Source of the DNA: Trichocoleus sp.
GTDB lineage: Bacteria; Cyanobacteriota; Cyanobacteriia; Elainellales; Elainellaceae
Reading direction: 5' to 3'
Length of the DNA stretch: 64,000 nt
Assembly (NCBI GenBank): GCA_036702865.1
Contig: DATNQD010000071.1
Coordinates: 186,001-250,000, forward strand
Position numbers and translations under genes: made by a program. The notes below the pieces were generated by a model that saw only the letters and a program-made list of their open reading frames with translations, did not search any database and was not told the origin of the DNA. This document shows, in pieces, positions 5,453-36,033 of the stretch (position 1 is its first letter; each line of letters begins with the position of its first letter).

Positions 5453-5797
5453 CTAAGAAGACTGAGCAGCCGCCAGCTTATAGTCGGAGGGCTTAATCTG
5501 ATATTTCACTAAATTAGCAAGCTCTTGGAGTTGGCTAATTGCTTCTGCACCCTCTAGTTTCATCAGTTCGCGATCGTCCCGCATTTCTGTCCATGTGATG
5601 CCATAGTCAGACACGAGAAAGCGAATCAGATGGTTTTCGCCCAGGCTTACCATAAAGGAAGCACTGCTCATTTGCCCTCCACAGGTATAGCAAGATGCCA
5701 GATATCCTCGTTGCTCTAGCACGATGGCGAGAGCTTGAAGATTCGTGACCAGATCCTGCACAAATTGGCGATGTTGTTCTGCAAGTCTAAGAAACAT
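5453..5797 (-). CDS. DUF1815 family protein
   Basis: 114 aa cyanobacteria-specific protein of unknown function. The body matches the conserved DUF1815 pattern as I know it (FVQDLVTNLQALA, HLIRFLVSDYGITWTEMRDD). A CYTC pair (Cys36, Cys39) could bind metal or be redox active, which is inference. The start at 5797 is fixed by an AGGAGG about 7 nt upstream; an in-frame codon at 5827 is less likely. It converges on dacB with only 20 bp between the stops. Confidence 0.8.
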   Translation of the reverse strand: MFLRLAEQHRQFVQDLVTNLQALAIVLEQRGYLASCYTCGGQMSSASFMVSLGENHLIRFLVSDYGITWTEMRDDRELMKLEGAEAISQLQELANLVKYQIKPSDYKLAAAQSS

Positions 5798-6201
5798 AGC
5801 TTGACCTCCTATCACCACACTTATCACAAAATTCTAATCTTTTAGAATTTCTTAAGATTTGGAACTGGACGGTCAGGTCTTGTCCTAAGAAATACGATCG
5901 GGCTAGCCAAGCGCAAGCTGAAAGCGATCTGGAAAATAGTGAGGGTTCAACCTTGCAACACGTCTAGCATAGGGTAGTCGAAGAACTCTCTCTAAAGAGG
6001 TATCGCGAACAACAGTTCTGCACTCTGTTTAATTATTTTGGTGACAACTGTGGTTTCTTATGTTTATAAAAGTCTCTACAATTCTAGACCAGGCTTTTCC
6101 GATTAGTAGTGCTAGAAGTACAAAATTTTGAGTCTTTACTATAACAGAGCAATACGATTAACTGCATTGCTCTGAACGTAAAAAATTACTTGTTTGTTGG
6201 A
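5798..6201. other. Intergenic region without a supported gene
   Basis: About 400 bp between DUF1815 and DUF2839, both on the minus strand. It is AT-rich and holds one clear hairpin (6145-6174, listed separately). I see no open frame with a plausible ribosome-binding site and no tRNA-like fold. It presumably contains the DUF1815 promoter. Confidence 0.6.
6145..6174 (-). terminator. Hairpin downstream of DUF2839, possible terminator
   Basis: A perfect 9-bp inverted repeat (CAGAGCAAT / ATTGCTCTG) with a 12-nt loop lies just past the stop of the DUF2839 gene. The flanks are AU-rich but there is no long U-run, so it could stabilise the 3' end rather than terminate. Confidence 0.5.
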
Positions 6202-6414
6202 TCAGTTTACCTGCCACCAGCCAAGAGCGGGACCAATGAAGCGAATAACAACCCAATAGGCAATCAATCCGCCAATTCCAATCCAGGCTCCGCGAGTGCT
6301 CCAATTCACAAATTGTGTTGCTTGGCTCTTTTTAATTGGTAGCCAGGGAAAGATGTTTTGCTCCTGCCCGTATTTCTCACCTAAGATATCTTTGCGCCGT
6401 TTTGAATCACCCAT
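6202..6414 (-). CDS. DUF2839 family small membrane protein
   Basis: 70 aa. It starts MGDSKRRKDILGEKYGQE and ends with one transmembrane helix (GAWIGIGGLIAYWVVIRFIG), the layout of the cyanobacterial DUF2839 family. The frame is open further upstream but those residues overlap the helicase gene antiparallel-free and look non-native; the ATG at 6414 gives the family-typical N-terminus and has a GAGGA 12 nt upstream. It follows the helicase-like gene by 70 bp on the same strand and may share its transcript. Function unknown; a thylakoid or plasma-membrane location is inferred. Confidence 0.8.
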   Translation of the reverse strand: MGDSKRRKDILGEKYGQEQNIFPWLPIKKSQATQFVNWSTRGAWIGIGGLIAYWVVIRFIGPALGWWQVN

Positions 6415-6484: not shown

Positions 6485-8056
6485 CTATTCTCCGATCCCC
6501 AGTCCTTCAAACGTCGTAAAAAGACTTGCATCCACATAATTAATGCGGGCAAGGGGGCTGAGCGCTGCAAGAACTTGCTGTCCGTAGCTGCGATGATTGA
6601 CGCGATTATCCAGCAAGGCAACGACTCCCTGGGCTTCACGGACGGGTGCAGTTGCCCGCTGTAGCTCGCTTAAAGCTGACGGCAGTAAATAGAGGCGGAA
6701 CCAATCCTGACGCGATCGTTTATATTGCATCACCCGACCTGCCACCAGGGGGTCTTCAAGAGAAGGAAACGGTAAGGTGGCAATGACTAACAAATGAGGG
6801 GCAGGCAAAACTGCCTGATGCTCTCGCCAGAATTCCCAGCCAGTAATTAAAATCCCATGTTCATCCAAACAGGTTTTTTCGACCTGCACTCGCGAACCAA
6901 ACTCACCTGCCAGAATTGAGCCAACCTGTGCCTTCAGGGGCGTGTCTCCAATCAAAACAACGGTTAATCCCTGATTTGCTGTACGGGTTGCACTCAGCAG
7001 GGCGTGGAGTTCTTGCATCAGCACTGGCTGAAACTTCGGCGTATTGGGCATCGGCAGCCCATCAGGAAGATAGAGTTGAATGAGTTCATGCTGGCGATCG
7101 AGCGAGAACTTGAGACAAGTCATCTCAGGCAAGCCTAGCCGCTGTCGATAGTGTGTTGCTTCCGCTTCCAGATCAAACGCTCCGCCAATCAAGACGACAG
7201 GCTGCTGCAACCAAATGGACTGAAGCATTGCTGATATATCAACCGGAGCCGCATTGAGGGAGAACTGCCCTTGCCTTCTGGCAACCTCTGCCCAGAGAAG
7301 CTGTCCTTCTTGCTGGAGGGCTTGCCCAAACCGATGCCAGGCTGCCGGAATTGGAGGGGCATTCGGACGGGTTGCGTCACCCGGGACTTGAGCAAGCGTG
7401 GATAGTCTTTGATAAAGTGCTGTCAAGACTGCTTGTTCGCTTGATTCAATCAGGTAGCGATCGTATGGGTTTTGCGGGTGTTGAAAGATTGAGCGCGTCA
7501 GTTGAACCCTGGTATCTCGAATCGTTTCTGTCTGTTCCGGGCATGCCTGCATCAGGTCATCCCAATCTTGCGGCTGGATACGAGCAGTAAGCTGGCTAAT
7601 TGTCCAGGTTTCGAGATCATCTGCACCGTCGATTACGGTTACAACATTGGGCGGAAATCGCCCTTCGTTCTGGAGTCGATCGGCAAGCCAAGACTGCGGT
7701 GTTGTGAGCAGCAATCCTTCAAAGCCGTCGTTTAGCCATCGATCGCCTGTCCGAATTTCTCGCTGGTTTGGAATCCACTGCTGTAATCGCGGAATCTCGA
7801 CCATTAGCAGGCGTTGCTGGACTGCCTCCGTTGCCACCAAAATTGCCGGACCCTGCCAGAGCAAAAGGGGCATGAGATAGCTCAGTCGATAGCGTCCATG
7901 GTAGCCAGAGGGGGCGCCGGCTTGAAGGAGCGCACTTCGCCCTAACCGCAACGCGCGAGCGACTAACCGCGCCATTGTCAGGTGGTGCTGCCAGTAAGGT
8001 TCGCCCTGCTCTCGCAGAAACGCCCGCAGTTGTTGGTGGACTTCTACTTCAATCAC
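6485..8056 (-). CDS. DinG/XPD-like helicase-related protein with degenerate ATPase motifs
   Basis: 523 aa with an apparent GTG start. The C-terminal third matches the DinG pattern (LPFPSLEDPLVAGRV, then YLLPSALSEL, then GVVALLDNRV). The catalytic motifs are eroded: the Walker A position reads APSGYHGRYRLS with no GK[ST], motif II reads VIDGADDLE instead of DEAH, and the motif VI arginine cluster reads ATAPVREAQ. No Fe-S cysteine set is visible. It is therefore probably not an ATP-driven helicase but a DNA- or protein-binding relative. Related genes are, to my recollection, annotated as helicase-like in other cyanobacteria. Its true start is uncertain because the ribosome-binding site is weak. 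Confidence 0.65.
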   Translation of the reverse strand: MIEVEVHQQLRAFLREQGEPYWQHHLTMARLVARALRLGRSALLQAGAPSGYHGRYRLSYLMPLLLWQGPAILVATEAVQQRLLMVEIPRLQQWIPNQREIRTGDRWLNDGFEGLLLTTPQSWLADRLQNEGRFPPNVVTVIDGADDLETWTISQLTARIQPQDWDDLMQACPEQTETIRDTRVQLTRSIFQHPQNPYDRYLIESSEQAVLTALYQRLSTLAQVPGDATRPNAPPIPAAWHRFGQALQQEGQLLWAEVARRQGQFSLNAAPVDISAMLQSIWLQQPVVLIGGAFDLEAEATHYRQRLGLPEMTCLKFSLDRQHELIQLYLPDGLPMPNTPKFQPVLMQELHALLSATRTANQGLTVVLIGDTPLKAQVGSILAGEFGSRVQVEKTCLDEHGILITGWEFWREHQAVLPAPHLLVIATLPFPSLEDPLVAGRVMQYKRSRQDWFRLYLLPSALSELQRATAPVREAQGVVALLDNRVNHRSYGQQVLAALSPLARINYVDASLFTTFEGLGIGE

Positions 8057-8211: not shown

Positions 8212-9051
8212 ATGAGGATTGGAATTGTGGGTCTGGGGTTGATTGGGGGGTCGATGGCGATCGATTTGAAGCGGTACTCAGACCATACGATTTTAGGCGC
8301 GAGTCGGCGGGTGGAAACTTGTCGGCAGGCAGTGACGCGGGGAATTGTCGATGATGCCAGCCCAGATTTGCAGCTAATGGCAACGGCAGATATTGTATTT
8401 CTCTGCACGCCGTTAGGGGCGATCGAGACGACCGTTGAACAGCTCATTCCACAGCTTCAGCCTGCCACAATTTTGACAGATGTAGGTTCGGTAAAAGCTT
8501 CAGTGGTCAAAACGATCGCGCCTCGCTGGAAAAACTTTGTGGGGGGGCATCCGATGGCAGGAACAGCAGATAGCGGACTCGATGCAGCCCAGGCAGATTT
8601 GTTTGTCGATCGTCCTTATGTACTGACGCCAATCGACTCAACGCCACCTGACGCGCTCGAAACCGTCGCCCAAATTGCTCGATCGCTGCGAAGCCGAATC
8701 TACCAGTGTCGTCCTGAAGACCACGATCGCGCCGTTGCCTGGATTTCTCATTTGCCCGTCATGGTGAGTGCCAGCCTCATTGCTGCCTGTCTTACTGAAG
8801 CTAATCCAGAAGTCCTGACATTAGCAAAGCATCTCGCCAGTTCCGGCTTTCAGGATACAAGCCGCGTTGGAGGCGGCAATCCAGAGTTGGGGGTGATGAT
8901 GGCGCACTACAATCAAACTGCACTGCTGCACTCGCTGCGAGGCTACCGCGATCGGCTCGATCAAATCATTGAACAAATCGAGACAGGCAATTGGGACAGC
9001 TTGGAGCAGCAGCTAAAAGAAACGCAGCAAGCGCGATCGGCATTTCTATAG
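8212..9051 (+). CDS. tyrA: Prephenate/arogenate dehydrogenase
   Basis: 279 aa, the size of cyanobacterial TyrA. The dinucleotide-binding motif GIVGLGLIGGS is at residues 3-13. The DVGSVK motif, GGHPMAGT and the helical domain with HLPVMVSASL are all present. The enzyme oxidatively decarboxylates arogenate (cyanobacterial enzymes generally prefer arogenate and NADP) to tyrosine in the cytoplasm. It is monofunctional, with no chorismate mutase or ACT domain. It diverges from the helicase-like gene by about 155 bp. Confidence 0.93.
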   Translation: MRIGIVGLGLIGGSMAIDLKRYSDHTILGASRRVETCRQAVTRGIVDDASPDLQLMATADIVFLCTPLGAIETTVEQLIPQLQPATILTDVGSVKASVVKTIAPRWKNFVGGHPMAGTADSGLDAAQADLFVDRPYVLTPIDSTPPDALETVAQIARSLRSRIYQCRPEDHDRAVAWISHLPVMVSASLIAACLTEANPEVLTLAKHLASSGFQDTSRVGGGNPELGVMMAHYNQTALLHSLRGYRDRLDQIIEQIETGNWDSLEQQLKETQQARSAFL

Positions 9052-34107: not shown

Positions 34108-34506
34108 AAAAGCTTGACTGTTTTTTGGCATTGCTCCAGATCAGATGAAATAATTGCCAACCTTGTTTTGCAACACATCACGGTTTATCAAGAATTATGG
34201 CGATCGTATCAGGGGATATCACTTCATCTGAACCGCCAAAACCAAAGGCTGCCAGGGTTTCTGTCAATCTAAATGCCTCCTCTGCCTACGTTACATTTCA
34301 ATTCGCTCCCACTCAATCAATCTCCTATCTTTGAGACAATCAATAGCATCCTCAAGCTCAACACTTTAGCCTCATTCGGTTTTATCCCAGATCGAGCACT
34401 CAGAAGCCAGAGCAGAGGCTGTTGCCGCCTGACTCAACGAGCCGCTGATCCCTAAAACCCTCAAACCTTGCCTAGCAAGAACACTGCTCAACGGAGATTT
34501 GGATTT
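34108..34506. other. Intergenic region upstream of chlB, no gene
   Basis: About 400 bp, including the chlB promoter or leader. A short in-frame extension of chlB to 34468 is possible but looks non-native. No tRNA or strong terminator is seen after rph. Confidence 0.45.
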
Positions 34507-36033
34507 ATGAAATTGGCTTACTGGATGTATGCCGGACCTGCACACATCGGCACTCTACGCATCGCCAGTTCCTTTAAGAACGTTCATGCCATCATGCACG
34601 CACCCATTGGGGACGACTACTTTAATGTGATGCGTTCGATGCTAGAGCGAGAGCGAAACTTTACGCCAGTGACCACCAGTGTGGTCGATCGCAATGTCTT
34701 ATCACGTGGCTCTCAAGAAAAAGTTGTTGATAACATCACCCGTAAGGACGCTGAAGAACATCCCGATCTGATTGTGCTGACGCCAACCTGCACCTCCAGT
34801 ATCTTGCAGGAAGATTTGCAGAATTTTGTCGACCGCGCTCAGCTTGAGGCAAAAGGCGATGTGCTGCTGGCAGACGTGAACCACTATCGTGTCAACGAAA
34901 TCCAGGCAGCCGATCGGACACTTCAGCAGATTGTTCAGTTCTACATTGCCAAAGCTCGCAAGAAAGGCGATCTGCCGGAAGGCAAGACCGAAAAGCCTTC
35001 TGTCAACATTATTGGGATCTCAACCCTCGGCTTTCATAATCAGCACGACTGCCGCGAGTTGAAAAAGCTGATGAGTGATCTGGGAATTGAAGTGAATGCT
35101 GTGATCCCAGATGGCGCTTCAGTGCATGAACTGAAAAACCTACCGCGTGCCTGGTTTAATCTCGTCCCCTATCGTGAGCTAGGTCGGATGACGGCTGACT
35201 TTTTGAACGAAGAGTTCGGTATGCCGTCTGTTGATATTTCACCGATCGGCATCGTCGAGACGGCTCGCTGTATCCGCGCCATTCAGAAGGTGCTGAATCA
35301 GCAGGGGCATGACGTCAACTATGAGCCATTTATTGATGAGCAAACCCGCTTTGTTTCTCAGGCTGCCTGGTTCTCTCGATCGATCGACTGCCAAAATCTT
35401 ACAGGCAAGAAAGCAGTTGTGTTTGGCGACAATACTCACGCAGCGGCGCTAACCAAGATCCTGTCGCGGGAAATGGGAATTCATGTCGTTCTGGCTGGAA
35501 CTTACTGTAAATACGATGCAGACTGGTTCCGGGATCAGGTGAGCGAATACTGTGATGAAGTGCTGATCAGCGATGACAATGGCGCAATTGGGGATGCGAT
35601 CGCCCGTTTAGAACCATCTGCCATCTTCGGTACTCAAATGGAACGGCACGTTGGCAAACGACTCGATATTCCCTGCGGTGTGATTGCGGCTCCGATCCAC
35701 ATCCAAAATTTCCCAGTAGGATACCGTCCTTTTGTCGGCTACGAAGGGGCAAACCAAATGGTTGATCTAATCTACAATTCCTTCACCTTAGGGATGGAAG
35801 ATCACCTGCTGGAAATCTTCGGCGGTCATGATACGAAGGAAGGAATTACTAAAGGCATTTCTGCTGACTCTGACCTCGGCTGGAGCAAAGATGGACTGGC
35901 AGAACTGAACAAGATTCCTGGTTTTGTGCGCGGTAAGGTGAAACGCAATACTGAGAAATTTGCCCGCGATCGGGGCATTGAAAGTATTACGGCTGAGGTG
36001 CTGTATGCTGCGAAGGAGGCAGTTGGCGCATAA
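34507..36033 (+). CDS. chlB: Light-independent protochlorophyllide reductase subunit B
   Basis: 508 aa, the usual ChlB length, from ATG 34507 ([21 protein letters not shown], the canonical N-terminus). Asp36 in PIGDDYF corresponds to the aspartate that coordinates the 4Fe-4S cluster in the NB protein. [26 protein letters not shown] and [20 protein letters not shown] are typical. With ChlN and ChlL it reduces protochlorophyllide in the dark using ATP and ferredoxin, and the complex is oxygen-sensitive. ChlL and ChlN are not in this window. A strong terminator follows. Confidence 0.99.

Follow-up and report, generated by a model that had tools for sequence, protein, structure and literature searches.

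The locus considered here raises the question of whether a DinG-like gene of Trichocoleus sp. that seems to have lost its helicase motifs is a decaying enzyme or a protein maintained for another role. It lies in a stretch of 64,000 nucleotides, referred to as the window, and is called sDinG below after a published class of cyanobacterial proteins. A sequence-only reading had placed it in the DinG family, had reported the Walker A GK[ST], the DEAH box and the motif VI arginine as lost, and had proposed a selected non-helicase function rather than decay. The gene and its domain match are located as follows.

6485-8056, minus strand: sDinG gene, 523 aa, GTG start, predicted to encode a catalytically dead protein of DinG/XPD fold
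6557-6793, minus strand: Helicase_C_2 domain match (Pfam), residues 422-500

The 523-aa frame, the GTG start and an N-terminus (MIEVEVHQ) kept at the same place in the orthologues indicate that the open reading frame is a real gene. Its product matched Pfam Helicase_C_2 at 27.8 bits (cut-off, 25.3), and no other Pfam domain exceeded its cut-off over the whole protein. NCBIfam YoaA (NF053712) was matched at 97.2 bits, well below the curated cut-off of 680, and DinG models gave weaker NCBIfam matches, while a profile of 20 orthologues searched against PDB sequences yielded one distinct match, E. coli DinG 6fwr (E = 8.6e-12). An AlphaFold2 model built from the window protein and 79 named orthologues reached a mean pLDDT of 89.9 and a pTM of 0.88. 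The top Foldseek matches of this model were DinG, CasDinG and XPD (E = 3.2e-20 to 6fws), and VIA-align aligned 497 residues with S. aureus DinG 8zef at Z 32.5 and gave Z about 30 for the CasDinG structures 8v44, 7xf0 and 8e2w. DinG structures match the model over its full length (residues 1-518), which indicates a protein of two motor domains and an Arch domain only, the Arch domain being read from the structure match of a predicted model. Since Pfam, NCBIfam, the PDB sequence match, the AlphaFold2 model, Foldseek and VIA-align all point to the same family, the assignment to the DinG superfamily by profile and predicted fold is firm, in agreement with the sequence-only reading. The PADLOC typeIV_DinG profile also matched the window protein, at 167.8 bits (E = 9.3e-50), and automatic defence annotation may on this score label cyanobacterial sDinG a type IV CRISPR DinG.

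The motifs were compared in one alignment of 144 distinct orthologues anchored on 17 intact homologues. The orthologues were drawn from 185 loci, some of which are the same gene fetched twice, by requiring an open frame of 350 aa or more, an E value of at most 1e-60 and distinctness over the C-terminal 400 residues, which left out shorter or weaker frames. The equivalents of the helicase motifs in the window protein are the following.

7982-7993, minus strand: residues 22-25, equivalent to the Q motif, with W22 and H25 in place of Arg and Gln
7886-7924, minus strand: Walker A equivalent by alignment, residues 45-57, QAGAPSGYHGRYR, lacking the lysine and four residues longer
7715-7771, minus strand: site of the missing Fe-S insertion, about residues 96-114, where the cysteine columns are gaps
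7619-7630, minus strand: motif II equivalent, residues 143-146, DEAH changed to DGAD
7178-7186, minus strand: motif III equivalent, residues 291-293, SAT changed to GGA
6824-6841, minus strand: motif V equivalent, residues 406-411, GWEFWR; of SFWEG, F and W are kept, E and G lost
6638-6661, minus strand: motif VI equivalent, residues 466-473, QRATAPVR, GR lost and R473 kept

Where the intact homologues read AGTGSGKS, the window protein reads AGAPSGYHGRYR, and the Walker A lysine, present in 17/17 intact homologues, occurs in none of the 144 sDinG sequences, so that the loss first noticed in one copy holds throughout. The loss of DEAH is confirmed with one qualification: at motif II the glutamate and histidine are gone from the window protein (E in 9/144 orthologues and H in 7/144, with G at the Glu position in 121/144), but the aspartate is kept in 128/144. 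The same applies to motif VI, where the intact QGFGRLIR contrasts with QRATAPVR. Its first arginine remains in a single orthologue (P in 133/144) and the full Q..GR.[IVL]R pattern in none of the 144, but R473 is nearly invariant (143/144). Given a one-residue deletion, R473 may correspond to the last arginine of the motif; the GVGRIR sequence of locus L251 favors this alignment, while the alignment used for conservation sets R473 opposite the preceding isoleucine. What is clearly gone from motif VI is thus the GR only. Two losses extend beyond the three originally described, namely the Fe-S insertion, with gaps at its four cysteine columns in 142, 143, 143 and 144 of the 144 sDinG rows, and motif III, where the first residue of SAT is G in 133/144 (S410>G291) and still S in 7/144. 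The Q motif has been replaced consistently as well, with W22 in 143/144 and H25 in 130/144 against R and Q in 17/17 each of the intact homologues.

A few orthologues depart from this pattern. Alone among the 144 rows, L163 (from genome G166) has DEAD at motif II, eight further orthologues have E at the second motif II position in IEEAE or PEA[DE] contexts, and L251 retains GR-IR at motif VI; none of these carries the P-loop lysine. Two pattern matches proved not to be motifs: a Walker A match in L151 falls in the part of the translation that precedes the conserved N-terminus, and in L047 a DE[AM][HDNR] match sits about 100 residues beyond motif II.

Active DinG/XPD helicases are defined by Walker A GK[ST], DEAH and Q..GR..R, and the window protein has none of the three. 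E. coli YoaA and DinG and the DinG proteins of sister classes (L201-L208) share its fold and C-terminal motif region but differ from it in having the P-loop GK[ST], a motif II of DEAH type and GR, and L201-L208 also have the Fe-S insertion. CasDinG of type IV CRISPR systems resembles sDinG in fold and in the PADLOC profile match but retains its ATPase residues according to the available text of PMC11981726, whereas sDinG has lost them. The profile scores to PADLOC typeIV_DinG and NCBIfam YoaA (167.8 and 97.2 bits) could be taken to mean that sDinG is an active helicase of DinG, YoaA or type IV CRISPR type and that its motifs were misread. This is hardly credible, since the YoaA score is far below its cut-off, the motif columns were checked in one alignment anchored on the 17 intact homologues, by which misread motifs are excluded, and the neighbors examined, unlike the setting of CasDinG, are not cas genes: none was found among the Pfam-named neighbors in the window or the identified recurrent neighbor clusters. 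From the loss of catalytic residues, sDinG is predicted to lack ATPase activity, and it would neither hydrolyze ATP nor unwind DNA.

The main features of the window protein are those of a class named sDinG (short-type DinG) in a 2025 review with Nostoc PCC 7120 as the example (PMC11981726). In the available text of that review, sDinG consists of MD1, MD2 and Arch only, has no Fe-S domain and has lost ATP-binding residues, its ATPase activity is doubted, and its function is described as not studied so far. The two descriptions agree in the cyanobacterial host, the MD1/MD2/Arch composition, the missing Fe-S domain and the lost ATP residues. The orthologues of the window protein include Nostoc loci (e.g., L114-L117), the PCC 7120 protein itself being outside our set. 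The review places sDinG in Nostocales, Chroococcidiopsidales and Pleurocapsales only, from representative strains of orders searched with E. coli DinG at 1e-5 (PMC11981726, as far as its available text extends), whereas here the gene is found in nearly all sampled Cyanobacteriia, and a deep clade of intermediate type and a neighbor pattern are described in addition. Relative to the available text of the review, the breadth, age, intermediate clade, selection data, solitary status, neighbor pattern and f24/g44 absence reported here are new. Among the literature matches listed, PMC11981726 alone uses the name sDinG for this protein, searches on inactive, Walker A-deficient cyanobacterial DinG gave no sign of the gene among the matches listed, and nothing on it was found in the available texts of PMC2823733, PMC4365693, PMC9659335 and PMC5464585.

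The gene is retained broadly. It was found in 56 of a first set of 60 relatives, the four without it being G024, G032 and G033 (85, 83 and 91% complete), of which G033 belongs to the same family as the window genome, and G058 (99%). Across the phylum, among genomes at least 90% complete, the sDinG profile matched 195/386. Within Cyanobacteriia, matches were obtained in 186/189 genomes, including one Gloeobacter-like genome and genomes of 1.6-1.8 Mb, a denominator that assumes the 171 other unmatched genomes to belong to other classes, per list order; the class genomes without a match, among those listed, are G058, G324 and G387. The nine matches in other classes are a different matter: eight were fetched (L201-L208; G078 was left out) and carry AGTG[SC]GKS, DEAH and QGFGRLIR, that is, intact motifs. 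In genus f24/g44 the gene is absent from 7/7 genomes at an E value of 10 (G058, G324, G387, G457, G491, G535 and G543), from which it follows that sDinG is not indispensable to all cyanobacteria. Judged by tree position, f24 may be Pseudanabaena-like, and family f2, considered below, may hold picocyanobacteria. An absence limited to Gloeobacter, and hence a link to thylakoids, was ruled out by a 16S tree and by G048: G058 and G387 are not the deepest branches, and the deepest genome, G048 (family f14; presumably Gloeobacter violaceus, from its tree position), carries sDinG, in a tree of 13 genomes for which 11/24 searched genomes had no 16S match.

The gene is usually the sole DinG-like gene of its genome. 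The window genome has no second Helicase_C_2 match, and strong matches (>90 bits), taken as the mark of an intact DinG, occur in 9 of 242 class genomes, six of f14 and one each of f57, f58 and f21. Intact motifs were confirmed in 7/9 of them (L242-L246, L054 and L055; G460 and G478 were left out). L054 (G055, f21) is the sole strong match outside f14, f57 and f58 among the 242 genomes and is an intact DinG with DEMH at motif II. The remaining class genomes have weaker Helicase_C_2 matches, of sDinG type or from other helicases, or none; we attribute the 69/242 without a match at an E value of 0.001 to sDinG having diverged from the Pfam model, as its own profile finds it almost everywhere.

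The selection data bear directly on whether the motifs were lost through decay. Omega was 0.034-0.091 in 11 pairs (Nei-Gojobori), three of which have dS >2 and are near saturation, and sDinG is under strong purifying selection. Of the positions conserved to at least 85% in sDinG as well as in intact DinG, 35 have the same residue in both groups, and at 19 each group is fixed on its own residue. The switched residues include R39>W22 and Q42>H25 in the Q motif, E62>Q45 in motif I, S410>G291 in SAT, and Q593>R467, G594>A468 and R597>P471 in motif VI, together with T88>V74 and H212>P120 in MD1, both placed by alignment. Judged from these substitutions, the pattern at the former ATP site is one of remodelling under constraint, not erosion. 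A slow decay, with a helicase on its way out and retained by chance, might be suspected from the f24/g44 genus lacking sDinG in 7/7 genomes, from G014 (91% complete, 5% contamination), whose copy contains three internal stops, and from the more advanced motif loss outside the deep clade; several other rows show a single stop within the match, and G048 and G053 show open frames of 500 and 561 aa. Such a decay is nevertheless very improbable in view of the omega values, the retention by 186/189 class genomes, including the small ones, and the long open frames at 185 loci, 144 of them distinct. Orthologues with intact motifs were sought and not found (Walker A lysine 0/144; full motif VI 0/144), and the degenerate motifs are conserved across 144 distinct sequences rather than belonging to one damaged copy. 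With no intact orthologues, low omega and former active-site positions fixed to new residues, the proposal of a selected non-helicase function is well supported.

The phylogeny suggests when the losses occurred. In a protein tree of 43 rows, 26 chosen sDinG and 17 intact, rooted on E. coli DinG, the 26 sDinG rows formed one group (100/100), whose stem is long at 2.56 changes per column. The nearest intact relatives were the sister-class DinG proteins L201-L208, with modest support (93/74), and the intact DinG of Gloeobacter-like genomes and G055 were placed apart from sDinG; L053 and E. coli DinG were flagged as long rows, so the exact placement in this tree is unsure. On one side of the first split within sDinG (95/80) stand seven rows, whose genomes belong to f14, f57 and f58. 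The motif II histidine is kept in 7/7 rows of this deep clade and in 0/137 of the others, and GR is kept in one, L251. The simplest scheme compatible with these residues is that the P-loop lysine, the DEAH glutamate and the Fe-S domain were lost before the crown group and the histidine and GR later. This scheme would need repeated losses of GR or its recovery in L251, and a later return of E in the nine rows that have it at motif II.

The fixed residues at the former pocket also bear on whether a nucleotide is still bound. One alternative is that sDinG binds ATP or another nucleotide without a classic P-loop and is a switch under nucleotide control, not a fixed scaffold; the retained D143 of motif II (128/144) and R473 (143/144) and the constraint on the former ATP pocket, with its switched residues fixed, are consistent with it. 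The Walker A lysine is missing from all 144 sequences, the arginine and glutamine of the Q motif are replaced, and in the AlphaFold3 model of sDinG described in the available text of PMC11981726 ATP could not be placed, a helix between beta1 and alpha3 occupying the pocket, all of which make such a switch rather improbable. In our model, DSSP gave one helix (51-66) after a strand (42-45), as secondary structure only.

The gene neighborhood offers a further alternative. The neighbors of the gene in the window are as follows.

6202-6414, minus strand: DUF2839 gene, 70 aa, 70 bases downstream of sDinG, the common neighbor
5453-5827, minus strand: DUF1815 gene (Pfam), further downstream on the same strand as sDinG
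8212-9051, plus strand: prephenate/arogenate dehydrogenase gene (tyrA; Pfam, NCBIfam), the divergent upstream neighbor

The DUF2839 gene lies downstream on the same strand in 67/80 named loci, 65 of the 67 within 300 bases, and two of the 13 named loci without it stop less than 200 bases past sDinG. DUF1815 was present in 48/80 named loci, and tyrA was upstream on the opposite strand in 26/80, within 600 bases in 15 of these. Among a further 34 diverse loci, DUF2839 was downstream on the same strand in 12, with the overlapping L162 left uncounted, and in six f2 loci the two genes are 28-46 bases apart. No such link was found in seven Gloeobacter-like loci (L247-L252 and L254), and in the six Gloeobacter-like genomes examined DUF2839 is located elsewhere. 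The pair became common after the deep split, and sDinG and DUF2839 probably form one transcription unit. Scans around sDinG for promoter and terminator consensus did not find clearly more sites than in shuffled sequence (3 versus a mean of 2.7, sd 1.7, and 2 versus a mean of 3.8, sd 1.9, respectively), and literature searches by name gave no function for DUF2839 or DUF1815 among the matches listed. Elsewhere in the window, positions 34468-36033 encode a nitrogenase-type oxidoreductase with a PCP_red domain, which we take to be probably the light-independent protochlorophyllide reductase ChlB.

It could be supposed from this arrangement that sDinG, for instance together with the DUF2839 protein, is a protein partner in something other than DNA metabolism and plays no part on nucleic acids. 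Besides the frequent and close pairing (67/80 loci, 65 within 300 bases; 28-46 bases in f2), this would fit a protein that is not basic: in the window protein acidic residues outnumber basic ones by 8, with medians of -6 for sDinG and -5 for intact DinG, rough values as many rows are stop-to-stop frames. Overall charge hence gives no support for nucleic-acid binding by sDinG, although its acidity is about equal to that of intact DinG. DUF2839 was present in 21/21 genomes examined, including the 7 f24 genomes without sDinG, which weakens it as an obligate partner; this and its separate location in six Gloeobacter-like genomes show the two genes to be mutually independent, and common transcription need not mean common function. 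A role confined to protein partners is therefore unlikely, if somewhat less so than the nucleotide switch.

We favor, with moderate confidence, the reading that sDinG is a pseudohelicase working as an ATP-independent scaffold on a DinG/XPD frame. For this speak the DinG fold, the lysine missing in all 144 sequences, the single group (100/100), the intermediate clade, the omega values, the 35 alike and 19 switched positions, the retention in 186/189 genomes and the solitary gene. Against it stand the acidity of the protein, the f24/g44 absence, the stops in G014, the lack of a copy in G033 and the DEAD of L163. XPD serves partly as an ATP-independent scaffold in TFIIH. By our proposal, the Fe-S domain and ATPase site of a DinG/XPD-type helicase would have disappeared a single time, ahead of the divergence of the Cyanobacteriia sampled here, while the two RecA-like lobes and the Arch domain would have been retained under strong purifying selection. 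The protein may then act as a rigid ATP-independent scaffold, comparable with XPD in TFIIH and possibly with D. radiodurans PriA at forks, and may hold single-stranded nucleic acid, a partner protein or both, chiefly by way of the second motor domain, which is the better preserved of the two. The scaffold is the default reading of the data, from which we infer both role and ligand. The available text of PMC11981726 weighs on the nucleic-acid part, as it describes the MD1 DNA-binding residues as absent, which counts against the scaffold, and only partial DNA as modelled, on MD2.

Proteins with a helicase fold, lost catalysis or motifs and another role are documented. It is reported that D. radiodurans PriA has lost ATPase activity but still binds DNA and interacts with DnaB (PMC4504706, available text), and that yeast Utp25 is a DEAD-box-like pseudohelicase (PMC9539457, available text). 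They differ from sDinG in belonging to other helicase families (PriA and DEAD-box-like) and, in the same texts, in having known pathways.

More tentatively, and as a possibility rather than an expectation, sDinG could be a core assembly protein, a pre-crown, ATP-free structural subunit of a repair, replication or transcription complex peculiar to cyanobacteria, left as the sole DinG-like protein once nearly every lineage other than the Gloeobacter-like group had given up its active DinG. Almost all cyanobacterial genomes in the sample retain the protein, and its matches in profile libraries are to models of DinG-type helicases or of a type IV CRISPR DinG. Should it be a pseudohelicase, it would have to be left out of any tally of helicase, repair or defence capacity. 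As intermediate steps are kept in the deep clade, the path from enzyme to pseudoenzyme would be readable in this family.
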